Positions 2,211-57,148 of a DNA stretch of 57,190 bases are shown here, piece by piece (the stretch's first letter is position 1; each line of letters starts with the position of its first letter). The DNA is taken from NCBI GenBank assembly GCA_025929585.1, contig JAICPY010000018.1, forward strand, positions 1 to 57,190, in the 5' to 3' direction. Origin of the DNA: Steroidobacter sp. (lineage in GTDB: Bacteria > Pseudomonadota > Gammaproteobacteria > Steroidobacterales > Steroidobacteraceae). The position numbers were made by a program, and so were the translations under genes. The notes under the pieces were generated by a model. The model had not been told where the DNA came from, did not search any database, and saw only the letters and a list, made by a program, of their open reading frames with translations.

Positions 2211-2270
2211 CGCGGTTGACGCTGACGGCAATAGAAGGAGTTTTCTCGCCGTCAACCGTCAACGGTTCCG
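2211..2270. repeat. Heptad inverted-repeat element A
   Basis: A G-rich arm at 2214-2229 (GTTGACG-like units) faces a C-rich arm at 2248-2269 (CGTCAACCGTCAAC) across about 18 bases. The right arm abuts the stop codon of the PhzF-family gene. The unit GTTGACG occurs about twice per arm with one imperfection on the left. This is the shortest member of the family found in this window. Confidence 0.7.
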
Positions 2271-3116
2271 CTACAACTCGATCGTGCCTCGCCCGATCTC
2301 GATGACCTCACCTCCGACGAAGATGTGGCGTTCCGCATTCAACTCGAGGAACAGTGTGGAAGGTCGTCCTACATACTCGCCTTGCGCAATCTCGAAGAGC
2401 TGCGGCACCGAACGCCCGTTTGCGAGAAACCATCCGCCGAGATTTGCGGTCGCGGAACCGGTTGCGGGATCTTCGAGAATGGCGCTTCCCTGCGGGAAGA
2501 AAAAGCGGCCGAGAATGCGACCGGGCTCGATTTCGGCGAACACGTACGCCATGCTGTGCCCATCCTCGCTTCTCACGATCGAGAACTTCGATGCGACTGG
2601 ATTCGCGGCTCGTACCGCATCGGCGCTTTTCAGGGGAACGACGAGTTGCTCTTTGCCGGACTTCACCCAAAGCGCTCGCGCATCGATATCGGATTCAGCA
2701 AGGCTGAGCATTGCGGCGAGTTGCGAGGCGCTCGCTTCGCACGGACGTGAAGTCGATGGATTCGCTTGCAACGTCCAGCGAGAACCGTCGGCGCGTACCG
2801 GGATGACTCCGGCTTGCATCTCGAGCGTCGCCTCATTGCCGCACTTTCCAAGCGCGCGGCACACGAATGCCGATCCAAGCGTCGGATGGCCGGCAAATGG
2901 CATCTCGTATGCAGGCGTGAAAATACGAACCCGCGCAGATGCTTTCGTCGACGGCAGCAAGAATGTGGTCTCGGACAAATTGAACTGTCCCGCAAGACGT
3001 TGCATCGTCTGCGTATCCAAGGACTGGCCATTCTCGAAGACGCACAAAGGGTTTCCCGACAAGGGATCGTTATTGCGCGTGAAAACGTTGACGATGCGAA
3101 AGTTCAGTGAAGCCAT
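2271..3116 (-). CDS. PhzF-family isomerase/epimerase
   Basis: A 281-residue cytoplasmic enzyme of the PhzF/diaminopimelate-epimerase fold. It carries the N-terminal GNP motif, a SETTF motif whose Glu49 aligns with the general acid/base of PhzF, and the DPATGSA loop near residue 220. The length is typical for the family. PhzF itself isomerises a dihydro-hydroxyanthranilate, but most homologues outside phenazine clusters have unknown substrates. No other phenazine genes are present. The kynurenine operon, which makes 3-hydroxyanthranilate, lies just upstream on the same strand, so action on a related aromatic amino acid is a possibility but only inference. The 268 bases between the two argue for a separate promoter. 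Confidence 0.85.
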   Translation of the reverse strand: MASLNFRIVNVFTRNNDPLSGNPLCVFENGQSLDTQTMQRLAGQFNLSETTFLLPSTKASARVRIFTPAYEMPFAGHPTLGSAFVCRALGKCGNEATLEMQAGVIPVRADGSRWTLQANPSTSRPCEASASQLAAMLSLAESDIDARALWVKSGKEQLVVPLKSADAVRAANPVASKFSIVRSEDGHSMAYVFAEIEPGRILGRFFFPQGSAILEDPATGSATANLGGWFLANGRSVPQLFEIAQGEYVGRPSTLFLELNAERHIFVGGEVIEIGRGTIEL

Positions 3117-3384
3117 GCGGTGCTACTCGGCCAGTTTGGTTGATTTCTACCTGCCAGCAGCGGATAGGTAAATGCACAGTCTGCGTGCTCGCTTGCGGGA
3201 CAGTTGCGAAGGAGATATTCCGAACCTTGAGGGGCCGCGGGCGTGCGGCTGCGATCCGGAGTGAGAACGGCTGGCCAACCCACGGACAGGGACAATCACA
3301 GATTGATTCAGCTCTCCCTTCAAGGAAAGGCCGCAACCACAGCGGCGGGTGAGGGTCCGATCACGCAACCTCGTTTTCTCGTCA
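3117..3384. other. Intergenic gap between kmo and the PhzF gene
   Basis: These 268 bases hold no convincing gene. On the minus strand a small hairpin (GCCGC and GCGGC arms at about 3330-3346) is followed by CTTTCCTT and could be a weak terminator for the kynurenine operon. No heptad repeat arms are visible. The promoter of the PhzF-family gene should lie near the 3117 end, but I cannot pick out a consensus. Confidence 0.35.
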
Positions 3385-4755
3385 TCACCTCTCTACTCGC
3401 AACGGCCGAAGTTTCGCTTTGACTAGCATGGCGGCCGCTTCGAAATCCACGTCGGAAAGGCTCTGCGCGTTACGCGTGAGCTCATCCAAAATTTGGCTCT
3501 GTATTTTGCCGCGTTGGAAAGCGACCGCGTACGGAATCTCGTCATGGAACATCACCATCGAGTAACGAGGCACAAAGTGATCGGGAAAGCGCTTCTCGAG
3601 CTCCAATGAGAGGGCTTTCTGCAGCATGAATTTCGGGTCGCGCACCGCATCGCGCATTTCGACATAGTTTTCCAGCGCCATGTCGGCGATCGCCTCGGTG
3701 TTGGGCTTGCGAACATCCTGGAATTCTTTGAACACGTCGTGCCAGTCATCGACTTTGTCCACCCAGGCATCCAGTTCCGCACAGTCTTCGAATGCGCAGT
3801 TCATTCCCTGACCATGGAAAGGCGTGATCGCGTGAGCGGCATCGCCGATCAGCAAGATTTCGCCGTCCACAGCCCAGCGTCCGCAACGAATGGTCCCCAT
3901 GACTCCGGCCGGATTCTCAGAGAACTCTTTGACCAAGTCGGGCATGAGCTCGCGAACATCCGAGAAATGTTTTGCGAAGAAGGCGTCGACCGAACCGGGT
4001 TGCATGAGAGATTCGAAGCTGTCGTCGCCCTGAACGGGCAAGAACAATGTCACGGTAAAGCTGCCGTCGATGTTCGGTAGGGCGATGAGCATAAAGCCGC
4101 CGCGAGGCCAGATGTGCAAGGCATTCTTCTCGATCCGATGCCGTCCGTCGGCTCGGGGAGGCAATGTCAGCTCCTTGTAACGATGGGGTAACAACTGCTC
4201 GGAACATGCGAACCCGAGCTGTTCCACCAGGGCGTGCCGTAACACGGATCCTGCGCCGTCGGCGCCAATCGTGAGCAGCGTCGATACCTCATGATGAGTG
4301 CCCGAGCTGACTTCCTCGAACAAGAATTTACGGCTGGGAATATCGGCGTTCACCAGCGCGTTCCCGAAATGCAAATCCACTCCTGCAGCTTCGGCAGCAT
4401 CGAGCAATACGCGATTCAATCCTGGACGAGAGACCGAGTAGATCACTTCGTGGTCGAGCTGCCCATAGGGCATGAAAGACAGCGACCCATCGACGGCGTG
4501 CAGCATCCGTCCGCGCATTGGAATGAGTAGAGGCAACACATCGGGCATGACGCCTGCAAGCTCGAGCGCGCGAATACCGCGCGCGGCCAGTGCGAGATTG
4601 ATAGAACGTCCGGCTGGAATGGTAGTCCGTCGCATATCGCCAAGGCGTTCGAACATCTGCACACGATGTCCGCGGCGCGCGAGCAAGATGGATATCAAGC
4701 TGCCGGCCAACCCTGCGCCGACTATCGTTACATCCGCGGGTGTTTCGATCGCCAT
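3385..4755 (-). CDS. kmo: Kynurenine 3-monooxygenase
   Basis: A 456-residue FAD-dependent hydroxylase that converts L-kynurenine to 3-hydroxykynurenine with NADPH and O2. The N-terminal GAGLAG at 13-18 is the Rossmann FAD motif. GDAAHAITPFHGQGMNCAFE is the second FAD motif with the KMO-specific context. A hydrophobic C-terminal stretch typical of eukaryotic KMO is absent, as in bacterial forms. I chose the ATG at 4755 because the extra 18 upstream residues overlap the kynureninase end and look non-homologous. It is the last gene of the leftward kynurenine operon, starting 5 bases after the kynU stop. Context and motifs agree well. Confidence 0.92.
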   Translation of the reverse strand: MAIETPADVTIVGAGLAGSLISILLARRGHRVQMFERLGDMRRTTIPAGRSINLALAARGIRALELAGVMPDVLPLLIPMRGRMLHAVDGSLSFMPYGQLDHEVIYSVSRPGLNRVLLDAAEAAGVDLHFGNALVNADIPSRKFLFEEVSSGTHHEVSTLLTIGADGAGSVLRHALVEQLGFACSEQLLPHRYKELTLPPRADGRHRIEKNALHIWPRGGFMLIALPNIDGSFTVTLFLPVQGDDSFESLMQPGSVDAFFAKHFSDVRELMPDLVKEFSENPAGVMGTIRCGRWAVDGEILLIGDAAHAITPFHGQGMNCAFEDCAELDAWVDKVDDWHDVFKEFQDVRKPNTEAIADMALENYVEMRDAVRDPKFMLQKALSLELEKRFPDHFVPRYSMVMFHDEIPYAVAFQRGKIQSQILDELTRNAQSLSDVDFEAAAMLVKAKLRPLRVER

Positions 4756-4760
4756 GATGC

Positions 4761-6044
4761 TCAAGGCGAGCCGATGCAAAGCGAATGCAATGCAGCGACA
4801 AAGTCCCAAACGTCCCTGAAAGAGTTGTAAAGCGGCGTAGGCGCGACGCGCACGACGTCGGGCTCACGCCAGTCGCAAATAAATCCTTGGTGGGTGAGTT
4901 GCTGATGTATCGCTCTTGCTTCGTCGGGAGCTCGCGCGATGCGGATCGAGAGCTGGCAACCGCGAGCTTCGATCAGATTGGGCGTGAGAATCGCCACATG
5001 ATCGCCGAGCGATGCCTGCAGTAGCAGTTCAAGATAGCCAGTCAGCCGGATCGACTTCGCTCGCAGCGCTTCCATGCCAGCTTGATCGAAGATTTCCAGT
5101 GAGGCGAGCAAGGGTGCGGCCGCGAAGATGGAAGGATTCGACAGTTGCCATCCTTCAGCGCCGCGAAGCGGGACGAACTGCTCAGGCATTGCGAATCGGC
5201 TTGTCTTGTCATGTCCCCACCATCCCGCGAAGCGCGGCATATCTAGCGCAATGCCGTGACGCTCATGGACGAAGCAGCCTCCGATCGCTCCGGGTCCTGC
5301 GTTGAGATATTTGTAGCCGCACCAGACTGCAAAATCGATGTCCCAGTCGTGCAGCCGCAGCGGCACGTTGCCAATGGCGTGGGCCAAGTCGTAACCGATC
5401 ACGCAACCATGCTTGCGGGCGCATGCTGCGATCTTCGCCATATCGAAGCATTGACCACTTAGGTACTGCACGCCGGGCAATACGATGGCGGCGATCTCGC
5501 GGGCATGACGTTCTATGGACTCACAAATGTCTTCGGTCGCAAAAATGTATTCACCGAATCGCGGTTCGATCTCCATCAATGTCATTGCAGGATCGAAGCC
5601 TCGTTGCTCGAGGTGCGAGTGAACGGCGTATCGGTCCGAGGAAAATGCGCGCTTCTCGATGAGTATTTTGTTGCGTTCGCCTTCGGGCCGATAGAAGCTC
5701 GCCAGCATCAAATGCAAATTGACTGTGAGCGAGTTCATTGCGATGACTTCGCTCGGGCGTGCGCCAGTGAGTCGTGCCAATCCTGGCGTGAGCTGTTCGT
5801 GGTACGAAACCCAAGGCCGCTTTGAGTCGAAGTGGCCATCTACTGCGAGCTCGGCCCATGCCGCGAGCTCCTCGTTGATCGCGCTCGCGGCGGACTTTGG
5901 CTGCAATCCCAGAGAGTGCCCGCACAAGTAGATGCTGCGCGTTCCACCTTTGCGCGCAGGCAAATGAAATCGATCGCGCAGCGGCGCGAGAACATCTTCC
6001 TCGTCCTGCTGTTGCGCGTAGGTTCGATCGAGCGACGGATTCAT
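4761..6044 (-). CDS. kynU: Kynureninase
   Basis: A 427-residue PLP enzyme that cleaves 3-hydroxykynurenine (or kynurenine) to 3-hydroxyanthranilate (or anthranilate) and alanine. YLCGHSLGLQP near the N terminus, the cofactor-side DLAHAIGNVPL, and WCGYKYLNAGPG with the Schiff-base Lys are all present. Length matches bacterial KynU. The frame stays open upstream, but ATG 6044 is chosen because it overlaps the stop of the preceding hydrolase gene in a TGATG arrangement and the first residues (MNPSLDRTYAQQQDEEDVLAPLRD) fit the family. This tight overlap implies translational coupling. The KMO gene follows 5 bases later, so 3-hydroxykynurenine is the probable physiological substrate. Confidence 0.93.
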   Translation of the reverse strand: MNPSLDRTYAQQQDEEDVLAPLRDRFHLPARKGGTRSIYLCGHSLGLQPKSAASAINEELAAWAELAVDGHFDSKRPWVSYHEQLTPGLARLTGARPSEVIAMNSLTVNLHLMLASFYRPEGERNKILIEKRAFSSDRYAVHSHLEQRGFDPAMTLMEIEPRFGEYIFATEDICESIERHAREIAAIVLPGVQYLSGQCFDMAKIAACARKHGCVIGYDLAHAIGNVPLRLHDWDIDFAVWCGYKYLNAGPGAIGGCFVHERHGIALDMPRFAGWWGHDKTSRFAMPEQFVPLRGAEGWQLSNPSIFAAAPLLASLEIFDQAGMEALRAKSIRLTGYLELLLQASLGDHVAILTPNLIEARGCQLSIRIARAPDEARAIHQQLTHQGFICDWREPDVVRVAPTPLYNSFRDVWDFVAALHSLCIGSP

Positions 6045-6859: not shown

Positions 6860-6863
6860 CGCT

Positions 6864-7379: not shown

Positions 7380-7506
7380 GTAGGTCTCCAATTACGTGCA
7401 GTATATCGCTGGGAAGCGTTCCGGCCAGTCTGTGCAAGTCTTTGGCGCTGCGGCTTGCATTTTGGCGCGCCGGCCCGAGAATTTCCGCATGCTCCTCGAG
7501 GTGTCT

Positions 7507-8151: not shown

Positions 8152-8172
8152 AGCCGGCGCGGGATTGTTGGA

Positions 8173-9018: not shown

Positions 9019-9045
9019 GTATGCCGAGGCTGTGCTGTTTGGGGG

Positions 9046-9107
9046 GTTGACCGTTGACGGTCGGAGAAGCGCTACTCCGGCTGTCAACCGACAACAGTCA
9101 ACTGCCG
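9046..9107. repeat. Heptad inverted-repeat element B
   Basis: The left arm (9046-9064: GTTGACC, GTTGACG, then GTCGG) faces a right arm at 9077-9107 that reads, on the minus strand, GTTGACT, GTTGTCG, GTTGACA. Between them CGGAG and CTCCG (9062-9066, 9075-9079) extend the pairing into the loop, so the whole intergenic RNA could fold into one hairpin. It lies in the 113-base gap between apaG and apaH. The unit is the same GTTGACG type as element A, 7 kb away. Confidence 0.75.
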
Positions 9108-9131
9108 CTCAAGTAAGCGGCATTGGTCTCG

Positions 9132-9587: not shown

Positions 9588-9674
9588 AAATCGTGTTTTC
9601 GTTGGAGGCAGGCATTCTAGCAGCGGCCGCACTCAGTGCTTACCTGAAAGCGTTCGCGCGCGCGAAGAATAGTG

Positions 9675-12147: not shown

Positions 12148-12296
12148 GTGACGAGTGACGGGTGACGGGCAGGAGTTAGGGTTCGAGCGAATCTGAGCGA
12201 TATGCCAAGTCAGTCCAGGCAATCGTCGCTTTGTTACTGGACTCTCGCCCAATGTTCCGACGTCTTGCGCGTCACTCGTCACCCGTCACCCGTCAC
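12148..12296. repeat. Heptad inverted-repeat element C
   Basis: The left arm holds three phased heptads, GTGACGA, GTGACGG, GTGACGG (12148-12168). The right arm (12269-12296) gives the complement: GTCAC, TCGTCAC, CCGTCAC, CCGTCAC. About 100 unrelated bases separate them. Together they occupy nearly all of the 167-base surA-pdxA gap, with the right arm ending 8 bases from the surA stop. The arms can pair over about 21 bases with no interruption. Confidence 0.85.
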
Positions 12297-25911: not shown

Positions 25912-26949
25912 TTGACGACCTTCAAAGGCATTCCCATCGTTCCAACCGAGGCGCGCAGCGGAGGCAAGTACGTTACACCTCAGGGGTTCACGGCCATTAA
26001 GGATGGTATCAAGGCTACTGCGAATGCTCAGGCGTTGAACGTGGGTCGCAAGCCGCAGTGGCTGCGTGCGCCGATGCCAGCCGGTCACGCTTTCGATGCA
26101 GTCAGAGCCACTGTGAAGGAGCACCGTCTCGCAACGGTGTGCGAAGAGGCTAAATGCCCGAACATCGGCGAGTGCTGGAACGCAGGCACCGCCACGCTCA
26201 TGCTGATGGGTGCCGTGTGCACCCGAGCGTGTCGTTTTTGTTCTGTCGACACTGGAAATCCGCGCGGCTGGCTCGATGCTGAAGAACCCGCGAACAGCGC
26301 ACGTACGGTTCAGTTGATGAAGTTGAAATACGTCGTGTTGACCTCGGTGAATCGCGACGATTTGCCTGACGGCGGAGCGGCGCACTTTGCGGCTTGCGTT
26401 CGAGAGATCAAGCGTCTGAATCCCGAGACGGCCGTCGAGGCTCTCACCCCGGACTTCCAGGGCAATCTCAGTGATGTGGAGACAGTCGTTGCGAGCGGTT
26501 TGGAAGTGTTCGCCCAAAATGTTGAAACGGTGCGCCGCCTGACGCATCCGGTTCGCGACGCTCGAGCGGGCTACGAACAGACTTTAGCTGTGCTAGCACA
26601 TTCGAAGCGATTCATGCCGCATGTCTTGACGAAAACCAGCCTCATGTTAGGACTCGGCGAGAGCGACGAAGAGATCTTCGAGGCGATGCGAGACATTCGT
26701 GGCGCTGGTGTAGATATTCTGACGTTGGGTCAGTATCTACGTCCGACGCTCAATCATTTGCCTATCGAGCGCTGGGTATCCCCTGAGGAATTCGCGAGCT
26801 ATCGCGAGCACGCACTGGAGTTGGGGTTCCTCGAATGTGTATCCGGGCCACTGGTGCGCTCGAGCTATCGTGCCGAGCGCGCTCTGGAACGCAACAATGC
26901 AGGACTGAACGCAGCCGGTGAGCGGCGGACGGCGGACGGCGGACGGTGA
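25912..26949 (+). CDS. lipA: Lipoyl synthase
   Basis: A 345-residue radical-SAM enzyme that inserts two sulfurs into the octanoyl group on lipoate-dependent proteins. The auxiliary-cluster cysteines ([12 protein letters not shown]) and the radical-SAM CTRACRFC motif are intact, as is the RSSYRAE region near the C terminus whose Ser ligates the auxiliary cluster. The start appears to be TTG 25912; there is no ATG nearby and no obvious ribosome site. The last residues, [10 protein letters not shown], are encoded by repeat element D rather than by conserved lipA sequence, so the tail is a repeat-derived extension. lipB follows. Confidence 0.93.
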
Positions 26950-27117
26950 AGAATGCCGGAGCGGACTCGACTTCCGTTCTGATTACCTTCCCGCCAACAA
27001 CGTCCTTCTTAGTTCGCACGCACTCAACTCTGACGTCGTCACCTCGTCACTACGTCATCCCGTCACGCCTCTTTCCATGTCTTTTCACCATCCGCCGTCC
27101 GCCGTCCCCCATTCACC
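26925..27117. repeat. Heptad inverted-repeat element D
   Basis: The left arm has three exact heptads GCGGACG (26925-26945) then GTGAAGA and runs over the lipA stop. The right arm (about 27084-27117) gives, on the minus strand, GTGAATG, GGGGACG, GCGGACG, GCGGATG, GTGAAAA, and lies inside the lipB N-terminal codons. About 130 bases separate the arms. Inside the loop, 27037-27066 is a second C-rich array with period 8 (CGTCACCT, CGTCACTA, CGTCATCC, CGTCACGC) that lacks an obvious G-rich partner nearby. Confidence 0.8.
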
Positions 27118-27742
27118 AATCCTGAAGTGGTTGGGTCAAGTCGACTACGAGCCTACTTGGCGGGCGATGCAAGCATTCACGGATAGCAGAGACGCGCAGA
27201 GCGACGATCAGATCTGGTTCCTAGAACATCCTCCCGTCTTCACACTTGGACTGAATGCAGCGCGAGAGCACGTGCTTGCGCCGGGCACTATTCCAGTCGT
27301 GCAGATCGATCGAGGCGGGCAGGTGACGTATCACGGACCTGGACAACTCGTGGTGTACCCTTTGTTGAACGTGAAGCGTCTTGGCTTGGGCGTCAGAGAG
27401 CTGGTGATGGCGCTCGAGAATGCCGTCATACAATGGGTGGCGACTAGGAACGTCGTTGCGGAAGGCCGACGCGACGCGCCCGGAATCTATGTGGAAGGCC
27501 GCAAACTTGCGAGTATCGGTCTGCGCATTCGACGCGGTTGCAGCTATCACGGGCTCGCATTCAACATCGCGATGGACTTGGGGCCGTTCTTACGCATCAA
27601 CCCTTGCGGCTATCAAGGTCTGCAAGTCGTCGATCTCAAATCATTGGGCATCGAAACCGACGTTGCCTCGGTCGCCAAAGGGCTTGCTCCACATTTGCTC
27701 CATGCATTGAATTGTGCGACCGATCCTCGTTGGATCGAGTAG
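27077..27742 (+). CDS. lipB: Octanoyl-[ACP]:protein octanoyltransferase
   Basis: A 221-residue enzyme that moves octanoate from acyl carrier protein to lipoyl domains, the substrate for LipA. The conserved GGQVTYHGPGQLVVYPLL and the active-site Lys in RKLASIGLRIRRG are present, as is the catalytic Cys in NPCGYQG. The ATG at 27077 has no Shine-Dalgarno, because the sequence before and after it is the pyrimidine-rich arm of element D; residues 3-13 (FHHPPSAVPHS) are repeat-encoded and not conserved. A shorter start cannot be excluded. It pairs with lipA, and faces a convergent DUF493 gene. Confidence 0.92.
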   Translation: MSFHHPPSAVPHSPILKWLGQVDYEPTWRAMQAFTDSRDAQSDDQIWFLEHPPVFTLGLNAAREHVLAPGTIPVVQIDRGGQVTYHGPGQLVVYPLLNVKRLGLGVRELVMALENAVIQWVATRNVVAEGRRDAPGIYVEGRKLASIGLRIRRGCSYHGLAFNIAMDLGPFLRINPCGYQGLQVVDLKSLGIETDVASVAKGLAPHLLHALNCATDPRWIE

Positions 27743-27848
27743 AGCGACAAGACGTTCTGGTTCCGAGATGCTGTAGCACGAGTTGGCAGCGGCGGCGTAC
27801 CAGAGGAGACCAGGAGGGCCGACGCGAGCCGAGTGTCGTTCGCGAGAT

Positions 27849-28109
27849 CTACAGCACGATCAACACACGCTCACACGAGGTGAGCTCGCGATAGAGCGCA
27901 TCCAACTGTTCTCGGCTTTGAGCCTGGAACGTGCAGGTGAGACTCAAGTAGTTGCCATCCTTGCTTGGGCGTTCTTCGATATCGCGCGGTTCGATAGTGC
28001 CGGCGTGCTTCTGAACGATGCCAACCACAATGCTACGAAAATCATCGGTCTTGCGGCCCATGACCTTGAGTGGAAACTCGCACGGAAATTCAAACAAGGT
28101 ATCGGACAT
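27849..28109 (-). CDS. DUF493 (YbeD-like) protein
   Basis: An 86-residue DUF493/YbeD protein, a small ACT-like fold, here with FEFPCEFPLKVMGRKTDDF and NYLSLTCTFQAQSREQLDALYREL. In E. coli ybeD lies between dacA and lipB; here the order is kept, with an aminotransferase inserted next to it. Function is not established, although the context suggests lipoate metabolism or regulation. The ATG at 28109 follows GGCAGGAA. A TTG start 7 codons upstream would overlap the aminotransferase stop region. Confidence 0.88.
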   Translation of the reverse strand: MSDTLFEFPCEFPLKVMGRKTDDFRSIVVGIVQKHAGTIEPRDIEERPSKDGNYLSLTCTFQAQSREQLDALYRELTSCERVLIVL

Positions 28110-38649: not shown

Positions 38650-40113
38650 ATGACCGAACTGCACCACCAAACCTTGTCCGAGCTGCGCGCCGGTTTGCGC
38701 GCGCGCCGATTTTCGAGTGTCGAGCTCACCAAGCATTATCTGGCTCGTATCGAGCGCTTCGACTCGCAGTTGAATGCCTTCATAACGGTCACCGCCGAGT
38801 CGGCGGTACGAGCGGCCGAAGCTGCCGATCGGGAACTGGAAACTTCAAATGCTCCGGCGCTGACCGGTATACCGCTCGTGCACAAAGACATCTTTTGCAC
38901 GGACGGGGTTTTGACCACCTGCGGCTCCAAGATGCTTTCGAACTTCATCGCTCCCTACGACGCCACTGTCGTGGAGCGTTTGGCTCGAGCGGGTGTCGTG
39001 ACGCTAGGTAAAGCGAATATGGATGAGTTCGCAATGGGCTCCTCGAACGAGACGAGTTTTTACGGTCCGGTAAAAAACCCTTGGGACCTGAAAAAGGTAC
39101 CTGGAGGGTCCTCGGGCGGCTCGGCGGCGGCGGTAGCCGCCAGACTGACACCGGCGGCTACGGGCACGGATACGGGTGGCTCGATTAGGCAGCCGGCCGC
39201 ATTGACAGGTTTGACAGGCTTGAAGCCCACGTACGGGCGCGTATCACGCTACGGCATGATCGCCTTTGCATCGAGCTTGGATCAGGCAGGAACGCTGACG
39301 CTCACGGCCGAGGATGCGGCGCTTCTGATGTCTGCAATGGCCGGATTCGATGCTCGCGATTCGACCAGCGTCGATGTGCCGGTACCGGATTATCTATCGG
39401 CGTTGGATCAGCCGTTGAGCGGTTTGAAGATTGGTTTGCTCAAGGAGTTCTTCGAGAAGGGATTGGATGAGCAGAGCGCAAAGCTGGTGCGCGAAGCGTT
39501 GAGCCTGTACGAAAGGCTCGGGGCCAAGCTCATAGAGGTCAGTTTGCCGAACCTGCCATTGTCTGTGCCGACCTACTACGTCGTTGCGCCAGCGGAGTGT
39601 TCCTCCAACTTGTCGCGATTCGATGGCGTGCGATTCGGACATCGTTGCGATAATCCCAGCGATCTGCTCGATCTATACCGTCGCTCGCGAGGCGAAGGAT
39701 TCGGCCCCGAAGTTAAACGCCGCATCATGACCGGCACTTACGTTTTGTCCGCCGGCTATTACGATGCTTACTATTTGCGAGCTCAGAAAGTACGCCGCTT
39801 GATTGCCGATGACTTCGCGCGCGCGTTCAGCAACGTGGATGTGCTCATGGGTCCCACCTCGCCCACGCCGGCATTCGACATCGGTGCCAAAGTGGATGAC
39901 CCGATCACGATGTATTTGAACGATATCTATACGATCGGTGCCAACTTGGCTGGTCTGCCCGCGATGTCTATCCCCTGCGGCTTCGCGGGAGAGTTGCCTG
40001 TCGGCTTGCAAATTATCGGCCCGCACTTCTCCGAAGCGAAGCTCCTCAACGTCGCCCACGGGTATCAGCGAGAGACACAGTGGCACAGGCGAATCCCGAA
40101 GGGGTTTATTTGA
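38650..40113 (+). CDS. gatA: Glu-tRNA(Gln)/Asp-tRNA(Asn) amidotransferase subunit A
   Basis: A 487-residue amidase-signature glutaminase that supplies ammonia to GatB. The catalytic triad is in place: Lys79 (LVHKDIF), cis-Ser154 (GGSSGGS) and Ser178 ([11 protein letters not shown]). Length matches bacterial GatA. The stop codon directly abuts repeat element E. Between gatC and gatA there are 89 bases with no element. The gene belongs to the gatCAB unit. Confidence 0.97.
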
Positions 40114-40288
40114 GAAGCGGTTAGCGGTTGGCGGTTAGCGGTTAGTCAGAATCGCCTGCGCCGATCGGAATCGAACTTATCATCGGAGTACACATGTCTT
40201 CATGCCTACTTCTTCATCGCTTTCCATACTGTCACGACGAGTTTTCGGGCTCATTTCCACTAACCGCTAACCGCTAACCGCTTCTTCT
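40113..40288. repeat. Heptad inverted-repeat element E
   Basis: The left arm has four phased heptads, GCGGTTA, GCGGTTG, GCGGTTA, GCGGTTA (40117-40144). The right arm has three, each TAACCGC (40261-40281). Flanking AGAA (left) and TTCT (right) extend the match. About 110 bases lie between them. The right arm ends 5-10 bases before the gatB ATG, so a hairpin would press on the gatB start. This is the clearest member of the family. Confidence 0.9.
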
Positions 40289-41743: not shown

Positions 41744-41817
41744 GTGACTCGTGACTGGCGGGTAGGCAGAAGAGGAATTTCACAACCCTCTCTTACTACC
41801 CGCGACCCGCTAATCAC
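41744..41817. repeat. Heptad inverted-repeat element F
   Basis: The left arm reads GTGACTC, GTGACTG, GCGGGTA, then GGCAGAAGAGG (41744-41775). The right arm (41787-41817) on the minus strand reads GTGATTA, GCGGGTC, GCGGGTA, GTAAGAGAGG. Only about 11 bases separate the arms. It lies between gatB and hslO. The inner AGAGG ends also recur in elements G and I. Confidence 0.8.
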
Positions 41818-42833: not shown

Positions 42834-43015
42834 GGAGGAAAGGGGGTAACGGTTGGGGGGTAGGGGATAGTAAACGAAGCAGAGCCAAACAGTGCGCTTC
42901 GGTGCGGCCATAAGCTTGCACAAACAATGGCTTAGAAGGCATATCGCACGACCAGCTGAGTCTTTTTCCTCTCTTGCTACCCCCTACCCCCTAGTCATTA
43001 CCCCCTTCCCTCCTC
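42833..43015. repeat. Heptad inverted-repeat element G
   Basis: The left arm (42833-42870) is AGGAGGAAAGGGGGTAA, then GGTTGG, GGGGTAG, GGGATAG. The right arm (42976-43015) on the minus strand gives GAGGAGGGAAGGGGGTAA, then GACTAG, GGGGTAG, GGGGTAG, CAAGAGAGG. About 105 bases lie between. The outer 17 bases match best. G-runs are long enough that the left arm might also form a G-quadruplex. It starts at the last base of the hslO stop. Confidence 0.8.
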
Positions 43016-43051
43016 TATATTCGCCCTCTCACATAAACAAATGCTTATATA

Positions 43052-47900: not shown

Positions 47901-48681
47901 GTACGCGGATGCTCGCCGCATGCTCAAGCAAATCATTCGCGAGCGCTGGTTGACCGCAAAGGGCGTGATCGGGTTGTTCCCGGCGAACAGTGTCGATGAC
48001 GATGATGTCGAGCTCTATGCGGACGAGGCACGCACGAAGGTGCTCGAACGTCTACATTTCCTGCGTCAGCAAAAGAGCAAGCCGGACGGCCAGTCGCACG
48101 ATGCGTTAGCGGACTACATTGCTCCGAAGGGCTCGGGCCGCAAAGATTACATCGGCGCATTCGCAGTCACTGCGGGAATCGGCATCGAGGCGCATCTCGA
48201 ACGCTTCCATCAAGCGCACGATGACTACTCGAGCATCATTCTGAAGGCGTTGGCAGATCGCTTTGCAGAGGCATTCGCGGAGCGTTTGCACGAGCGTGTA
48301 CGGCGTGAATTCTGGGGCTATGCGCCGGAAGAGAGATTCTCGAACGATGATCTCATCAAGGAAACGTACCAAGGTATACGTCCAGCTCCCGGATATCCCG
48401 CGTGCCCGGACCATACCGAGAAGGCGACGCTTTGGCGCTTGTTGCGTCCGCAGGTCAATGCAGGCATTCAGCTAACTGAATCTTTCGCGATGTATCCAAC
48501 GGCCGCGGTGAGCGGTTGGTATTTCTCACACCCAGGATCGCGCTACTTCGCGGTCGGAAAAATTGCCTTGGATCAGGTGCAGAACTACGCCGCACGCAAA
48601 AAGATCTCGCTAGAGGAAGCGCAGCGATGGCTGTCACCGAATCTGGGTTACGACCCCGATGCGGATGCGGATGCAGCGTGA
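44965..48681 (+). CDS. metH: Cobalamin-dependent methionine synthase
   Basis: A 1238-residue full-length MetH that methylates homocysteine using 5-methyl-THF through methylcobalamin. Domains in order: homocysteine-binding barrel with zinc cysteines near 248, 310 and 311 ([15 protein letters not shown]); the pterin-binding barrel (about 355-620, [18 protein letters not shown]); the helical cap (about 660-745); the B12 domain with DVHDIG near residue 759 and [11 protein letters not shown]; and the SAM-dependent reactivation domain (about 910-1238, [12 protein letters not shown]). No cobalamin riboswitch fits in the 42-base gap before it. The operon context makes MetF the methyl supplier. Confidence 0.97.
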
Positions 48682-48702: not shown

Positions 48703-48798
48703 GTGATTACGTGATAGGGTGATAAGGACAGAAGGGTAGTGAGGCTTCGCTCTGTCGTCATCACTTCATCACTTCATCACCTTATCACCTCATCACGC
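48703..48798. repeat. Octad inverted-repeat element H
   Basis: Here the unit is eight bases. The left arm runs GTGATTAC, GTGATAGG, GTGATAAG, GACAGAAG, GGTAGTGA (48703-48742). The right arm is five octads, CATCACTT, CATCACTT, CATCACCT, TATCACCT, CATCACGC (48759-48798). The loop is about 16 bases. The right array is nearly perfect in period, and its complement is GTGATGAN, like the left units. It lies between metH and scoA. Confidence 0.88.
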
Positions 48799-48877
48799 AG
48801 TCCTTGCGTGGTATACAGCTGGCCTCGTCGGCAGCCACGCGTACAATTAAAGCGAACATGGTTGTACCGGTGTTGAA

Positions 48878-49594: not shown

Positions 49595-49629
49595 CTCTCA
49601 GAATTCCATTTGGAGGCGCAATCGAAGCT

Positions 49630-50277
49630 ATGCCTTGGACACGCGATCAACTTGCTCAGCGCGCTGCGCGTGAGCTGCAGGATGGGTTCTATGTGAACCT
49701 AGGCATCGGCATACCAACGCTGGTTGCGAACTTCATTCCGAAGAACATGAAAGTCGTTCTGCAGTCGGAGAACGGTATGTTGGGCATGGGGCCGTTTCCG
49801 TTCGAAGGCGAGGAAGACCCGGATTTGATCAACGCAGGTAAGCAGACCATTACCGAATTGCCGATCTCTTCTTATTTCTCCTCTTCCGATAGCTTCGCGA
49901 TGATCCGCGGCGGTCACATCGATTTGTCTATTTTGGGTGCCATGGAAGTCTCCGAAGGAGGCGACCTCGCTAACTGGATGGTGCCTGGCAAGATGGTCAA
50001 AGGCATGGGTGGCGCGATGGACCTGGTGGCGGGTGTCAAGCGAGTCGTCGTCGTGATGGAGCACACATCCAAAGACGGATCACCGAAGTTCAAGGAGCGC
50101 TGTGATCTTCCGCTCACCGGCGCAAATGTCGTAGACATGATCATTACGGATCTCGCGGTATTCGCGCGTGCCACACGTCAGTCGGGTTTCAAGCTCGTCG
50201 AGCTAGCTCCGGACGTGACAGCAGAGCAGGTGAGGCAGAAGACGGCCGCAAAATATGAGGCTTTGGGGTCGGAGTGA
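49630..50277 (+). CDS. scoB: 3-oxoacid CoA-transferase subunit B
   Basis: A 215-residue beta subunit. The catalytic glutamate that forms the gamma-glutamyl-CoA intermediate is Glu47 in [27 protein letters not shown] and the [26 protein letters not shown] block are typical. It completes the CoA-transferase with ScoA. GGAGGC sits before the ATG at a slightly long spacing. The stop codon is embedded in the left arm of element I (GTGATTC), so the element begins inside the gene. Confidence 0.93.
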
Positions 50278-50364
50278 TTCGTGACTCGCGGTGGCAAGAG
50301 GAAGCGAAGAGGCTTGCCGAGGTTTTGTTCTGACGGCCCGCGAATCACCAATCCAGGACCCGCG
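50274..50364. repeat. Heptad inverted-repeat element I (degenerate)
   Basis: The left arm is GTGATTC, GTGACTC, GCGGTGG, CAAGAGG (50274-50301), overlapping the scoB stop. The right arm (50335-50364) has GAATCAC and GGACCCGCG, so on the minus strand it reads GCGGGTC, then GTGATTC. The pairing is weaker than in other elements, but the units match element F. It lies between convergent scoB and the SARP regulator. Confidence 0.6.
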
Positions 50365-50412
50365 TTTTTGACGTGGCGTACGCGCCGATACGCAGCCGCA
50401 CGCCGCACGCCA

Positions 50413-53400: not shown

Positions 53401-54270
53401 CAAGCCATCCAGCTTCGCGACCAACACGACTGCATCACGCAACTGCGGCCTGATCTCGATCCGTGCCGATTCGGTGGAATCGCTCGTCTCTTCTTCGACA
53501 GCGAGATCGGTAGTCTGCGCACTGGCACTATCGGGACTCGCCCGTCGTCGCTTCATTAGATCGCGGTAGAGTTGCTCCGTAGCAGGTTCCGGAGCAACGT
53601 CGAGTTCACGGCGCAATAAATCCTTGCACAGCCTGAATTGCCTCAAAGCCTCGGAGTACGCGCCGCGCCTAGCGTGCAAATCCATCATCGTGCGATGAGT
53701 GGTTTCGTTCAGCGGCTCCAATGCCAGCAGACGGTTGCAGGCGGTCGCCGCCCCGTCGAGCTCTTGGCTCGCGATACATAGCTGAATCAGCTTTTGAAAG
53801 GCATCGCACGCTTGTCTGCGCAACAGAACGCGCTCGGTAGTGAGCCATTCATCGAATGCGGCCGAACGCGCGTCAAACCCCTCCAGGAGATCGCCCCGAT
53901 ACAGCTCGACGATTTGCTGCAGACCGGTTCGAGTGGCCGTGTTCAGGCATTCTCGAAATCGCGACAGATCGCTGTCGAATGCATCCGCATCGAGCGCCAC
54001 CGAATCGGTGGCGGTAATCAGAGCGTTTTGACACCCTTCCGGCAGCGATTTTCGTAGCGCGGCAATCGCTTGTCTCAGGCTGGTTCGCGCAAGCTCATCG
54101 TCGGCGTCCTCCCAGAGGAGCGATGCAAGGCGCTCGCGGTCATGCGACTCGGAGGGTCGAAGAGCGAGATAGGCAAGGAGGGCCCGACTCTTTCGCGAGG
54201 CGATCTTGATCTCAGCGCCGGAGTTCAGCACTCGTAGCGGCCCGAGCAATTGCAGAAAGAGATGCTTCAC
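50413..54270 (-). CDS. SARP-type regulator with pseudo-cyclase, ATPase and TPR domains
   Basis: A 1285-residue putative signal-integrating regulator. Residues about 1-90 are a winged helix of the SARP type, followed by a BTAD domain to about 250. A class III nucleotidyl cyclase-like domain follows (about 280-440) but lacks both metal aspartates: the first site reads VAKLDG near 285 and the second GSNVLGVFG near 332. A STAND-like ATPase starts near 465 with Walker A GEAGIGKSR (about 490) and LLIAEDVHWAD as Walker B. The C-terminal half is TPR-rich. The start is GTG. It diverges from a TTC38-like gene and may control it. What it senses is unknown. Confidence 0.82.
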   Translation of the reverse strand: MKHLFLQLLGPLRVLNSGAEIKIASRKSRALLAYLALRPSESHDRERLASLLWEDADDELARTSLRQAIAALRKSLPEGCQNALITATDSVALDADAFDSDLSRFRECLNTATRTGLQQIVELYRGDLLEGFDARSAAFDEWLTTERVLLRRQACDAFQKLIQLCIASQELDGAATACNRLLALEPLNETTHRTMMDLHARRGAYSEALRQFRLCKDLLRRELDVAPEPATEQLYRDLMKRRRASPDSASAQTTDLAVEEETSDSTESARIEIRPQLRDAVVLVAKLDGLLELEATLDPEEALQLASAFQQRVHRIVQEFGGVADRRVGSNVLGVFGIPNAYGNEAECGARAALLLKDSTAHESWPIAAPLRLQIGLAQGQVLATSALFPLSGRPTHIAHALASRAGAGEILMSEEVRQSLGDRASCKRHVADDLNGASMPAWTLQSLRADDDASARPFVGRRPELAMILAALDRCVASRHGRSIVVRGEAGIGKSRLVEAVSSAARDRAVEVHCAQIFDFGQSAGRGPIQTLALSLMGTNVNASEADRAAAVRRLLAARGGSIDQAIFLSDLVDAPLEPELAALEQAMDAATRQRGRTSALTYIVESAAQRCAQLLIAEDVHWADTDELARLGEIAAIVANCPILLIMTTRPEGDPINASWRARARGCPVTTLDLAPLAPDEAEELAAYFPELPRETVDACIVRAEGYPLFLDQLLRAANAGNESLPGSVRALVLTRADRLCDLDNRALQAGAVLGQQFRLDALRHMLEEADYEATALLDTGFVRGDGHEFQFAHALFRDAVYESTLKSQRRDWHRRAASWFARRDIALYADHLSAAQDEGAAAAYADAARAEQQALRFERALSLAVKAAALAHEPALLHSTSALMGELLLQLGRTHDALAAYRESLDFAVDPEGRGRGLLGIASVLRVMDRHEEALDALDRAEIQLRDIADVRTKAQLQTMRGNLCFPLGHFDACLEAHRQAHQFALEADSPLEIARALGGLGDAYYQRGELITARKHFAQCVQEARKHNLASVLLANLPMLGLTEAYYGLPTAGRESLKEALDLAKRVGDLRSELLIHLCFAPGFLIQAQYQDAHLRAIKALELAKRLGARRFQAECMGILAIIKLADEKKAEALQLARDSVELGRETGMSYCGPVLLSIVARATSNPIEREKALQEGEALLASGCVSHSYLDFYTNAIEVSLQEHQWEEARRYAEALESYTSREPLPLISLFIRRTRLLADFAEGSHSKDLSAQLEDVRSECVKMNARAALKAVEEALGAV

Positions 54271-54385
54271 AGTGCCATCCGTTCGGTAAGTCGATGTTGT
54301 TGCTTGAGTGTCGCGCGGGTCGTGAATGGGTTCGCACTAGGGCTTTAGGCCAAGCGCCGCTCGATGTGTATGCAACGATGTCGGT

Positions 54386-54405
54386 GGGGTGAACACTAGC
54401 ACCCC
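54386..54405. promoter_or_regulatory. Palindrome in the SARP/TTC38 divergent region
   Basis: GGGGTG and CACCCC face each other across 8 bases (AACACTAG). It lies in the 225-base gap between the two divergent genes, 115 bases from the regulator start and 90 from the other. A dimeric or tandem operator for the SARP-type regulator is one possible reading. No promoter hexamers are distinct. Confidence 0.4.
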
Positions 54406-54495
54406 ATTAGGGAGCTTCACGTATTTTTCACGCATCGGGCGACTTTGTCATCACGGAGGTGGGCTAAAAAGTATCTAACTTGTATGGAGATACCT

Positions 54496-55917
54496 ATGTC
54501 TTTGTCAGATTGCCGTGGCGTTCCGTGCTCGACCGCCAACAGAAGCTCTTTGGATTCTTACGAAAGAGCGGTGGAATTGTCCGCCAGTTATTTCGTCGAC
54601 CCGCTGGCGGTGATCGATTCCGCATTGGAACGGGATCCGGAGTTTGCGAGCGGCCACTGCTTGCGAGCGGGTCTGATGGTGATGGCCGCGGACAAGAGCG
54701 TACTGCCGATGCTCGCGGAAAGCATCGCAGCGATCGAGGCGCTGGGGCGTCGAGCAAACGAGCGAGAGCGCGCCCATGCCGCTGCCGCGCGAGCCTGGAT
54801 GAACGGTGATTTCGCCACTTCTATCCGACGATACGGGGAGATTCTCCTGGAATATCCCCATGATCTTTTAGCCCTGCAAATCGCCCACGTCGGAGATTTC
54901 TATCTTGGGGCGACCAGCTTGTTGCGAGACCGCGTTGCACAAGTGCTGCCTCTTTGGGACATCAGCATTCCGGGATTTCACTACGTACTAGGCATGTACG
55001 CCTTTGGATTGGAGGAAACGGCCTTGTATGCGCGAGCCGAAGACGTAGGTCGGCGTGCTGTGGAAATCCAAGGACGCGATGTTTGGGCTATCCACGCGGT
55101 CGCCCACGTGATGGAGATGCAGGGCAGACTGCGCCACGGCATCGATTGGTTGACCGAACGGGAGAAGGATTGGTCCGTCGATAACGGTTTCGCCTTCCAC
55201 AATTGGTGGCATCTGGCTCTGTATCACCTGGATCTGGGCGATACCAATCAGGTCCTATCGTTGTACGACCAGAAGATCAGGCCATCCAGGGTACCGCTCG
55301 AGATGGTGGATGCATCCGCCTTGTTGTGGCGCCTGCACATTCGCGGTGTGGATGTGGGGCTGCGATGGCAGGGTCTGGCAGATTCGTGGACGCCCTTCGC
55401 GAGCGACGGATACTACGCGTTCAACGACGTGCACTCGCTGATGGCATTCGTCGGCGCACAGCGTTTCGATCTGGTGGAAAAGGTGCTGTCCGGTCTCGAG
55501 CGCAGTGCGGCAGGGTTCGGTACCAACGCGATGATGGCTCGCGAAGTGGGTTTGCCCGTAGGCCACGCAGTCGTCTCATTCGCGCTTGGGCACTACGCCG
55601 AATGCGTGGATTTATTACTGCCGGTGCGCACGCAAGCCCATCGGTTCGGAGGCAGTCATGCACAGCGCGATTTCATCCACCTGACACTGGTCGAAGCGGC
55701 TTTGCGCGCAGGCAAAGTGCGTCTAGCGCGAGCGTTGATCGCCGAACGCACGCAACTCAAGCCAGCAAGCCCATTCAACTGGCAATTGGCGGCTAGAGCG
55801 TGCGATTCGAGCGGCCAAGCAAGCGAGGCCGCAAAAGCGCGGGATAGTGCTGAATCTCGTCGCAAAACCCACGCCGACGCCTTGCGTGCCAATGATGATG
55901 CGGCGACTACGATGTGA
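54496..55917 (+). CDS. TTC38-like tetratricopeptide-repeat protein
   Basis: A 473-residue helical protein resembling the TTC38 family. Characteristic stretches are FASGHCLRAGLMVMAADK, RRANERERAHAAAARAWMNGDFATSIRRYGEILLEYPHDLLALQIAHVGDFYLGA, HYVLGMYAFGLEE, and HAVAHVMEMQGRLRHGIDWL with its His-rich context (FHNWWHLALYHLDLGD). No signal peptide or membrane span is visible, so it is probably cytoplasmic. The ATG at 54496 follows GGAGA; in-frame ATG 54484 is the alternative. Function is unknown in bacteria as far as I know. It ends in element J and diverges from the SARP-type regulator. Confidence 0.82.
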   Translation: MSLSDCRGVPCSTANRSSLDSYERAVELSASYFVDPLAVIDSALERDPEFASGHCLRAGLMVMAADKSVLPMLAESIAAIEALGRRANERERAHAAAARAWMNGDFATSIRRYGEILLEYPHDLLALQIAHVGDFYLGATSLLRDRVAQVLPLWDISIPGFHYVLGMYAFGLEETALYARAEDVGRRAVEIQGRDVWAIHAVAHVMEMQGRLRHGIDWLTEREKDWSVDNGFAFHNWWHLALYHLDLGDTNQVLSLYDQKIRPSRVPLEMVDASALLWRLHIRGVDVGLRWQGLADSWTPFASDGYYAFNDVHSLMAFVGAQRFDLVEKVLSGLERSAAGFGTNAMMAREVGLPVGHAVVSFALGHYAECVDLLLPVRTQAHRFGGSHAQRDFIHLTLVEAALRAGKVRLARALIAERTQLKPASPFNWQLAARACDSSGQASEAAKARDSAESRRKTHADALRANDDAATTM

Positions 55918-55969
55918 CGGAGGCAGTCTTTCTCTGTTCTGACTTCGTCACCCCGTCACCTCGTCACTG
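55914..55969. repeat. Octad inverted-repeat element J (one-sided)
   Basis: The right arm is three octads, CGTCACCC, CGTCACCT, CGTCACTG (55946-55969). The left arm is reduced to one unit, GTGACGG (55914-55920), which overlaps the stop of the TTC38-like gene. The right array resembles the orphan octads inside element D. It lies between convergent TTC38-like and zapE genes. Confidence 0.65.
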
Positions 55970-55975
55970 TTCTTC

Positions 55976-57088
55976 TCACGCTTTGTGCTCGCGTGCGAGG
56001 TACTGCTGCGACTGCATCTCGATCAAGCGACTTTGGGTACGTTCGAATTCGAACGTGAGCTTCTTGCCCCAGTACAGTTCGGTGATCGGTGCGGCCGCAG
56101 AAACGACCAGTTTGACCGCTCGATCGTAGAATTCATCGACCAAAGCGATGAAGCGTCGCGCCTGATTCTCATGCTCGGGCGTTAGCACCGGCACGTCGCT
56201 TAAAAACACGGTGTGGTAACACTTGGCCAACTCGATGTAATCGGCTTGCCCTCGCGGACCGTCGCAGAGCTCTTTGAATGTAAACCAAACGACATCGTCG
56301 GCCTGTCGATGGGTTCGTAATCGTCGATGATTCAAGGCGAGTATCGAATCTGGCGTGCCAGGCTCACCCGCAACTTCGTCGAACAATACCTCCAACGCTT
56401 TGCTCTGCTCCGGCGAGGCTGCATCGAACCATGTCTTCGCACGCTCGAGCAGGCGCAGGCGGTAATCCGTCCCCGGTGCCATGTGCACGATCTCGGTGTG
56501 CTCCTTGATCCGCCGAATCGCAGGTAGGAAGCGCGCTCGTTGCAGACCGTCCTTGTACAACTCATCCGGCGCCACATTGGAGGTCGCAACCAACGTGATA
56601 CCGCGATCGAAAAGCGCTCCCAACAAGGTGCCTAGAAGCATCGCGTCCGCGATGTCAGCGACGAACAGTTCATCGAAGCACAGGAGTCTGGTCCGCTTCG
56701 CAATCTTGTCTGCAACGAGATTCAAAGGGTCCGCTTCATTCTGATGCTTCTTGAGCTCGTCGTGGACGAACTGCATGAAACGATGGAAATGACTGCGTTG
56801 CTTGTCCTTGAACGGCAGGCTTTGGAAAAACAAATCCATCAGCCATGTCTTACCCCGTCCGACACCTCCATGGATGTACAAACCGCGTACTGCAGAACGA
56901 CTGCGCTTCTTAGGCAGCAACGATTCGAGTAAGCCTTGCTTGTTTGGCTGATGAAGGAGCCGATTGCGCAAGTCGTCGAGGCGGGCAACGACACGTTCCT
57001 GCTCCGGGTCGTGCGTATAACCCAGACGAGCGACCTCGTTGCGGTAGAGCGTGGTGAACGTAAGCGGTGGGGTGGGATGAGTAGTCAA
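55976..57088 (-). CDS. zapE: Cell-division ATPase ZapE (AFG1/LACE1 family)
   Basis: A 370-residue AAA-type ATPase. Walker A is GGVGRGKTWLMDLFF, Walker B is LLCFDELFVADIADA, and VATSNVAPDELYKDGLQRARFLPAI is the family's sensor region. ZapE in E. coli is needed for division under low oxygen or heat and destabilises FtsZ assemblies. The frame opens to near the window edge, but TTG 57088, preceded by AGGCGAG, is the best start; codons further upstream are repeat-derived (element K). No ATG lies before the Walker region. Confidence in family is high, in the start moderate. Confidence 0.92.
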   Translation of the reverse strand: MTTHPTPPLTFTTLYRNEVARLGYTHDPEQERVVARLDDLRNRLLHQPNKQGLLESLLPKKRSRSAVRGLYIHGGVGRGKTWLMDLFFQSLPFKDKQRSHFHRFMQFVHDELKKHQNEADPLNLVADKIAKRTRLLCFDELFVADIADAMLLGTLLGALFDRGITLVATSNVAPDELYKDGLQRARFLPAIRRIKEHTEIVHMAPGTDYRLRLLERAKTWFDAASPEQSKALEVLFDEVAGEPGTPDSILALNHRRLRTHRQADDVVWFTFKELCDGPRGQADYIELAKCYHTVFLSDVPVLTPEHENQARRFIALVDEFYDRAVKLVVSAAAPITELYWGKKLTFEFERTQSRLIEMQSQQYLAREHKA

Positions 57089-57115
57089 AGCTCGCCTGCG
57101 GATCGGGAAGTGAAC

Positions 57116-57148
57116 GGCGGGCGGGGGGCGGCGGGAGGGGGGGGACGC
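57116..57148. repeat. Heptad array K, partner arm outside the window
   Basis: Four phased G-rich heptads, GCGGGCG, GGGGGCG, GCGGGAG, GGGGGGG (57117-57144), end in ACGC. The C-rich partner is not present before the window end at 57190, so it would lie further right if it exists. It is upstream of zapE, and its G-runs could form a quadruplex. Confidence 0.55.

Follow-up and report, generated by a model that had tools for sequence, protein, structure and literature searches.

Facing arms of short tandem units in many families: a dispersed repeat of an uncultured Steroidobacter

Short tandem repeats of the heptad kind have been described on at least three occasions, and three explanations have been offered: quadruplexes, regulator sites and translation signals. 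Here we examine paired arrays of this sort in an uncultured bacterium of the genus Steroidobacter (Steroidobacteraceae, Gammaproteobacteria), both in one whole contig of 57,190 bp (C207, JAICPY010000018.1, hereafter the window) and in the rest of its 5.13-Mb assembly of 297 contigs (G000; relatives also carry G numbers). At a typical site a G-rich array, the left arm, faces a C-rich array, the right arm, across a short spacer. Foldback elements of eukaryotes (FB of Drosophila, Galileo) are transposons whose terminal inverted repeats are built of internal subrepeats, and Galileo has its own transposase. In bacteria, Rehm et al. (2015, PMC4692102) described GGGAATC heptads in Xanthomonas and GGGGA(T/C)T heptads in Nostoc: these are intergenic and chromosome-wide, four units are preferred, a stop codon often lies within 50 bp, and two repeat sites stand in convergent orientation in 70 cases in Xcc and 75 in Xac. 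The Xanthomonadales heptads that a preliminary description of the window had mentioned are real. In Geobacter metallireducens, Aklujkar et al. (2009, PMC2700814) reported three classes (1-3) of sites that each hold three to five 7-9-mers in tandem; most of these sites form pairs, on opposite strands and separated by varying distances, and they were proposed to be sites of the regulators IHF/HU. REPINs are extragenic inverted doublets with a short spacer, their singlets being interpreted as remnants (Bertels and Rainey 2011, PMC3116915), and in Beggiatoaceae the heptad TAACTGA forms abundant intergenic direct repeats of few units (MacGregor 2015, PMC4679880).

The G000 arms resemble the Xanthomonas/Nostoc heptads in being heptameric, in holding about four copies (median 28 nt) and in lying between genes, and the pairs are likewise convergent and often close to a stop codon. 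They differ in that about ten families, with periods of 7, 8 and 9, share one genome, where one unit type was studied per organism, and in that most arms do not hold four GGG tracts (18 of 260 do); further departures from the heptads as that paper describes them are a recurrent inner motif, units that vary between orthologous sites, and arms that enclose older DNA. With the Geobacter paired sites they share several classes of tandem 7-9-mers, opposite strands and variable distance, and the class 2 unit of Geobacter (TCTCCGTS) resembles units in the relatives G008 and G002; the comparison of arms, spacers and orthologous junctions goes beyond that account in the parts considered here. Like REPINs, the pairs are inverted, extragenic and shortly spaced; unlike REPINs, which are made of repetitive extragenic palindromic (REP) sequences, they have arms of tandem heptads, mostly unrelated spacers and no association with RAYTs (REP-associated tyrosine transposases). 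They have the terminal inverted repeats of miniature inverted-repeat transposable elements (MITEs), but no internal body common to the copies, the CGCAGCGG family excepted. The Beggiatoaceae repeats differ in being direct and mostly of a single orientation relative to the start codon, with a single inverted case in the sections of that paper considered. Foldback- or REPIN-like in layout, the G000 pairs fail the REPIN and MITE tests made here; their layout is that of the Rehm heptads together with the Geobacter paired sites, and we file them as a variant of that kind. In the open-access literature, to which the search was confined, no description of this combination of features was found. The safest description is of a multi-family repeat whose arms, spreading singly or in concert, face one another and bracket DNA that is not necessarily theirs. 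G000 allows the earlier explanations to be separated: arms with four GGG tracts are rare, the spacer mostly holds no mobile body, and the arms of a site match in family and hardly in detail. If arms are indeed inserted around existing DNA, this would be a bacterial way of writing short repeats beyond any transposon known to us.

Abundance, polarity and anatomy of the arms

The phased arrays quoted in the preliminary description, at 12148, 40117 and 48759, were all found again. In the window, 14 arrays rich in G or C have a period of 7-9, where 60 dinucleotide shuffles give 0.62 on average, and there are three strict facing pairs, where the same shuffles give none; shuffled sequence does not give as many matches. 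Both arms pass the strict automatic rule only at 12148, 26923 and 40116, and the total rises to about ten sites once weaker partners are counted. Genome-wide, CTAACCGCTAACCG with at most one mismatch has 334 matches, against 7 for its reversed control. A 552-kb sample of G000 contains 58 period-7, 11 period-8 and 8 period-9 arrays (1, 0 and 1 in one Markov shuffle) and 40 facing pairs, or 7.2 per 100 kb; by extrapolation the genome would hold about 370 pairs. Classification covered 974.5 kb, part of it in stretches picked because of earlier matches: 260 of 303 arrays fell into ten families named by their unit (GCGGTTA, GTGACG1, GTGAYG2, GTGAYG3, GSSGATA, GTTGAC, GGACTNN, GGGGGTA, GCGGACG and CGCAGCGG) and 43 were classed as 'other'. 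Three GGGAATC units in a row have 15 matches in G000; among the ten matches listed, nine are on contig C111 and one on C136. Near the end of C111 (48296-48534), about 12 GGGAATC units face about 13 GGGAGTC units, the longest facing pair in the sample.

The facing order seen in the window is general. Among array neighbours no more than 200 bp apart in the 974.5 kb, 83 of 90 run from a G-rich left to a C-rich right array and 2 from C to G. The inverted partner of the 131 non-edge arms lies on the inward side in 92 cases and on the outward side in 4, at distances of 22-141 bp although the search reached 300 bp; at a lower threshold and a 250-bp limit, gaps of 223 and 226 bp appeared in 2 of 67 pairs.

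Arms have quartile lengths of 24-30 nt around the median. The GTGA families have a single core joined by linkers of 1, 2 or 3 nt (GTGACG1, GTGAYG2 and GTGAYG3, respectively). An inner purine motif, from a list compiled after the arms had been inspected (TCAGA, TCGGA, CCAGA, CAAGA, TAAGA, CGGAA), lies within -4 to +16 of the inner end in 160 of 260 arms, compared with 39 on the outer side and 14 deeper inside; by family its frequency is lowest in GCGGACG (3 of 9) and highest in GGGGGTA (8 of 10). By eye, CAGAA-type inner ends are also present on several arms of other units in G002, G007 and G008. Four tracts of at least two Gs occur in 162 of the 260 arms and four of at least three Gs in 18; even four GG tracts are wanting in 23 of 32 GTTGAC, 27 of 38 GTGACG heptad and 29 of 30 GTGAYG octad arms.

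Whole arms recur exactly. The 30-mer AGCGGTTAGCGGTTGGCGGTTAGCGGTTAG is present at nine sites and the 30-mer AGGCGATAGGGGATAGCGGATAGGCGATAG at six; these are 15 different sites, at none of which the two arms are both such a copy, which argues that arms spread between sites. An irregular arm, GGGGGTAATGAT, occurs 14 times at nine sites, with facing copies at five of the nine. At two loci (L034 11741-11959 and L183 11287-11406), nine-unit GTGAC arrays stand beside GTTGAC arms with a common outer flank, GCGCTCAGGG, and may be a separate, larger repeat.

Paired arms, spacers and orthologous junctions

The preliminary description had proposed that the unit differs between sites while both arms of a site mostly share it, so that arms should be more alike within than between sites. 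Across families this stands: a named family is common to both arms in 67 of 83 pairs, with 13.3 expected, and 6-mers in common amount to 0.63 for the arms of one site, against 0.14 (40 pairs). Within a family the difference is small. Within-site likeness is not significantly above between-site likeness, although five of six families lean that way, in GSSGATA (n = 17, p 0.15), GCGGTTA (n = 15, p 0.73), GTGACG1 (n = 11, p 0.34), GTTGAC (n = 9, p 0.27), GTGAYG3 (n = 7, p 0.22) and GTGAYG2 (n = 5, p 0.20), and when the 64 pairs are pooled the values are 0.795 and 0.783 (p 0.09). The lengths of left and right arms are uncorrelated (rho -0.008), and inner-motif types are equal in 12 of 32 pairs, with 10.9 expected. 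Given this small excess of likeness within families and the unrelated lengths and inner motifs, the two arms of a site look almost as if each had been picked independently from the family pool, possibly with a weak trace of arm-to-arm copying. Such near-independence is unlike the outcome of recent copying; the suggestion that arms are regenerated in place from each other therefore finds little support here, and none from the exact 30-mers, which never occupy both arms of one site.

Most families have no common spacer body, and at one site older DNA lies between the arms. Comparison of 67 spacers with one another gave a single 14-nt match. Against the sample, 83 spacers gave 46 matches (shuffled spacers gave 6), namely 31 to nested arms, 21 of those from the lipA-lipB pair of the window, 13 of 14-19 nt, and 2 in the CGCAGCGG family. 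Since spacers of the latter have 46 and 33 nt in common (85-88%) at three sites (L183 5010-5143, L187 12760-12856 and L046 10145-10246), this family may have a shared body. On contig C41 (152814-152967), two GTTGAC arms enclose a terminator between a desaturase gene, identified by Pfam FA_desaturase, and a 51-aa open reading frame that we read as rpmG. By eye, seven relatives (G013, G008, G002, G012, G011, G003 and G009) have the desaturase-side terminator and then rpmG with no heptad arms, G002 with another palindromic repeat at this junction. When the G000 spacer was aligned with the terminator of four of the relatives, 0 of 1000 shuffles reached the score in each, and the comparison shows the terminator to be older than the arms. 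The C-terminal residues 280-399 of the desaturase protein (L184 11593-12801) also match the ISL3 transposase DDE model.

Contig C41 holds 18 pairs, five with an orthologous junction in the G013 stretches; the pair at 125010 was dropped, its flanking matches ending far away. Two weaker cases are the spacer at C41:142564, which matches an arm-free G013 junction directly beside the conserved flank (p 0.005), and that at C41:128814 (p 0.013, with a looser flank). For the gatA-gatB spacer, likeness between G000 and three relatives is not significant, 0.10-0.35 of unrelated spacers scoring equally high. Spacers being mostly unrelated and one being an older terminator, arms were generally not brought in with the spacer as a transposon body. 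The CGCAGCGG family is an exception. The statement in the preliminary description that transcription from either side gives a similar hairpin does not hold for desaturase-rpmG at least, provided that the terminators of this junction are functional.

At several orthologous junctions in sister species the pair has another unit in both arms, in line with the change of unit that the preliminary description had proposed to look for. Between gatA and gatB the unit is GCGGTTA in G000, of GCTGGC type in G002 and G008 and GTAGGCT-like in G013; in G012 and G010 the two genes stand 6 nt apart with no arms between them, and G007 shows no clear facing pair. Between lipA and lipB it is GCGGACG in G000 and G007 and GCGGTTG in G006, where the left arm is one unit. 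At the 3' side of the gene ending at 48,681 there are GTGATGAA octads in G000, GACGTGTA octads in G007, GCAAAAGGC in G002 and CACGGAGAT in G008; the last two genomes have a gap of about 700 nt here, so that their downstream context differs. The junction of mreD with the gene of a penicillin-binding protein (PBP) is empty in G000 and occupied in G007, G008 and G002, and the 12.1-kb pair of G000 has no counterpart in G013, G002, G008, G012 or G010. The G008 genome has 217 GCGGTTR triplets (18 for the reversed control) yet a GCTGGC pair at gatA-gatB, so a site can differ in its unit without the whole genome having switched units. In G012, GCGGTTR matches number 64 (reversed control 5). Of 120 genomes searched across the phylum, two have the CACGGAG pattern, and of 369 searched across the class, two have that of GGGAATC, namely G000 and G394, whose pairs have a different inner flank. 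Under a uniform rule, relatives had arms in 4 of 13 comparisons at junctions that are occupied in G000 and in 6 of 123 at other junctions (p 0.008, the comparisons being non-independent); under a looser rule the figures are 8 of 14 and 13 of 122, likewise non-independent. Within G000, the search for empty sites gave no clean case, the flank matches being arms or homologous aceF/lpd-region sequences.

In the G002 ortholog of window 27736-27852 (L165-L168), a CACGGGG pair is nested in the spacer of a CACGGAG pair, and in the G008 ortholog of window 55872-55979 (L171) the spacer of a GGATAGC pair holds a different palindromic repeat (GTCATCCCCGC...). Separate REP-like elements of CCGGCTTCAGCCGG type also lie in gene junctions of G002 and G008 (L053, L061).

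Candidate mobilising enzymes were sought in 14 genomes. PF01797 (RAYT, Y1_Tnp) is present in six, including G010, which has no GCGGTTR match, and is unmatched in array-bearing G013 (99% complete), G012 and G007 (75% complete); PF00078 (reverse transcriptase) is present in ten, without G013 and G008, and Ku in 13. Presence of RAYT, reverse transcriptase or Ku does not track the arrays across these genomes, and all three were rejected. The sole Y1 transposase match of G000 (L286, C175) has long, similar, palindrome-rich flanks on both sides; no heptad arms lie within 1.5 kb of it. Exact copies of entire 30-nt arms at several sites, together with the older DNA enclosed by a pair, led us to reject telomerase-like or unit-by-unit addition at break ends as the principal explanation.

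Relative to genes, called by a simple home-made codon model, the pairs mostly lie at gene edges. The stop-side distance is at most 24 nt in 61 of 82 cases (median 10), and the start-side distance is 3-28 nt in 30 of 66 (median of all 54). By context, co-directional pairs number 52, convergent pairs 15 and divergent pairs 7, with 2 more inside genes and 7 at edges. Divergent junctions thus make up 7 of the 74 placed elements and 82 of the 506 junctions, an informal comparison from which no bias against them is claimed. In aceF and lpd (contig C10, 19120-21262), facing arrays lie in frame within linkers. Those of AceF span residues 76-132, directly after the first lipoyl domain (4-75), and 209-276, between the second (Biotin_lipoyl_2 match 182-206) and the E3-binding domain (282-316), and that of the lpd product spans residues 89-152, between lipoyl (4-74) and Pyr_redox_2 (157-476) domains. 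The repeats thus form protein linkers and, filling intergenic gaps as well, shape both operons and proteins.

Origin of the pairs

We favour, tentatively and at somewhat less than an even chance, a dispersed multi-family repeat system in which the single arm is the unit of spread. An arm measures about 30 nt and repeats a 5-6-nt core roughly four times, with linkers of 1-3 nt (periods of 7, 8 and 9); in most arms a short inner motif (TCAGAA/CAAGAA/TCGGAA) comes next. Arms would be inserted in fixed polarity, with the inner end pointing away from the adjacent coding region; two of the same family would come to stand opposite one another, separated by 22-141 bp of DNA that is mostly unrelated and, at least once, was there before them. 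Insertions would persist at the margins of genes and, where the reading frame is kept, in the linkers of proteins, and unit number would later drift by slippage. The anatomy, pairing, polarity and common family of the arms are observed; that arms spread by insertion, and that the inner motif is recognised by a sequence-specific factor, we infer. In a more specific version, which we consider rather doubtful, an arm of about 40 nt (four short-core repeats and an inner TCAGAA-type motif) would be copied, and the machinery would write two same-family arms, drawn near-independently from the genome pool and in opposite polarity, onto both edges of existing non-coding or linker DNA, bracketing old DNA and carrying none.

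Several points weigh against arm-wise spread. It leaves unexplained that paired arms are of the same family and converge, and within-site likeness is slightly above background in five of six families. Co-occupied junctions could be lasting sites rather than new insertions. Neither a strain-level empty site nor a target duplication was seen, the nearest genome having about 65-81% DNA identity, and the presence pattern in the 14 genomes picks out no enzyme among RAYT, reverse transcriptase and Ku. Desaturase-rpmG is the only firm case of an older spacer in 17 comparisons, five of eight tested spacers have no likeness to the orthologous junction, and the CGCAGCGG family, with its possible spacer body, may be an ordinary small mobile element. 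The distances to genes depend on the home-made caller.

Pairs might instead originate in place, as the preliminary description suggested, if hairpin (quasipalindrome) template switching copied a first arm to the far side of the spacer and slippage later adjusted both. This would explain the older DNA between the arms, the common family, the facing polarity and the short spacer, and it is where the slight within-site excess over the same-family background (five of six families, pooled p 0.09) would point; that excess, of about one percentage point, does not reach significance, arm length and inner-motif type are uncorrelated, and two exact 30-mers at 15 sites never form both arms of one. Since fast inter-site homogenisation would also be needed to hide the copying, and the model offers no source for the first arm, we regard it as unlikely. 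Less likely again is a selected mRNA hairpin, serving as end protection, RNase site or bidirectional terminator while its sequence turns over. The more frequent occupation, with other units, of G000-occupied junctions in relatives and the nearness of arms to stop and start codons would fit, and most Xanthomonas (Xac) repeats are transcribed (Rehm et al., PMC4692102). At desaturase-rpmG, however, each transcript should stop before holding both arms, if the terminators work; some pairs lie within coding linkers, divergent junctions also hold pairs (7 of 74 placed elements), the left-right match beyond family is hardly above random, and a hairpin needs no G-first order, yet 83 pairs run G to C and 2 C to G. 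By analogy with Geobacter metallireducens, the arms might be binding sites of a global, IHF/HU-like DNA-binding protein: the inner motif recurs across families, the Geobacter classes have the same layout (PMC2700814), and units of their class 2 type (CACGGAG) stand at junctions of relatives. About ten units in one genome would require about ten specificities, and linker insertions and rapid turnover are unlike regulatory sites, which makes this reading improbable.

A MITE- or REPIN-like element, with the spacer as its body and moved in trans by a RAYT or other transposase, would account for facing terminal repeats over about 80-200 bp in many intergenic copies; REPINs likewise consist of two inverted copies around a spacer that is less conserved (PMC3116915), and CGCAGCGG-family spacers share 33-46 nt at three sites. 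Outside that family, only nested arms and 14-19-nt matches are common to spacers, and the desaturase-rpmG spacer is older DNA. Arrays are present in G013 (99% complete) and G012 without a Y1 transposase match, and the RAYT of G000 has no arms within 1.5 kb. This explanation is largely refuted for most families, and very improbable as a whole. The least probable reading is that the repeats are retained for the four G tracts of a quadruplex (G4). Four units are typical, GGGAATC and GGGGA(C/T)T oligonucleotides fold as G4 in vitro (Rehm et al., PMC4692102), and 162 of 260 arms have four tracts of at least two Gs; only 18 of 260 have four of at least three, and most GTTGAC, GTGACG heptad and GTGAYG octad arms do not have even four GG tracts. 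The quadruplex fails as a general rule, though GG-bearing families may form two-tier structures. Arm-wise spread remains the reading we prefer.

Sites and genes of the window

The arms of the window are collected in Table 1. Pfam supports gatA (amidase), gatB, lipA, lipB, mreB, mreD, a class B PBP and hsp33 among its genes, and its GatB has 90% and 85% identity to GatB of two relatives' metagenome-assembled genomes.

Table 1. Arms of the facing arrays in the window, with the start of the opposing arm
Feature	Position	Strand	Opposing arm
Left (G) arm, GTTGACG type, degenerate	2212..2229	+	2248
Right (C) arm	2248..2265	-	2212
Left arm, GTTGAC type	9045..9066	+	9083
Right arm	9083..9104	-	9045
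Left arm, GTGACGG heptads	12148..12169	+	12270
Right arm, spacer 100 bp	12270..12296	-	12148
Left arm, GCGGACG heptads, lipA 3' end	26917..26946	+	27095
C-rich array, GTGACG octads, nested within lipA-lipB pair	27038..27066	-	
Right arm, GCGGACG heptads, lipB 5' end	27095..27117	-	26917
Left arm, GCGGTTA heptads (x4 at 40116-40145), directly 3' of gatA stop	40113..40145	+	40257
Right arm, directly 5' of gatB start, spacer 111 bp	40257..40285	-	40113
Left arm GTGACTCGTGACTGGCGGGTAG, inner GCAGAAG	41744..41772	+	41796
Right arm	41796..41817	-	41744
Left arm, GGGGGTA family, degenerate	42842..42870	+	42977
Right arm, GGGGGTA family, irregular AATGAC unit	42977..43005	-	42842
Left arm, GTGAT octads, degenerate	48703..48727	+	48758
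Right arm, five GTGATGAA-type octads	48758..48796	-	48703
Weak left arm GATTCGTGACTCGCGG (weak pair)	50276..50300	+	50338
Weak right arm (weak pair)	50338..50349	-	50276
Weak left arm, single GTGACG unit (weak pair)	55914..55926	+	55946
Right arm, GTGACG octads (weak pair)	55946..55967	-	55914
Lone GGCGGGC-type array at contig end	57115..57143	+	not visible

At the gathering threshold, Rfam has no match in the window. A palindrome of the ATAAA...TTTAT kind at 43015-43040, 5' of the gene at about 43052, recurs in relatives and is perhaps a regulator site.

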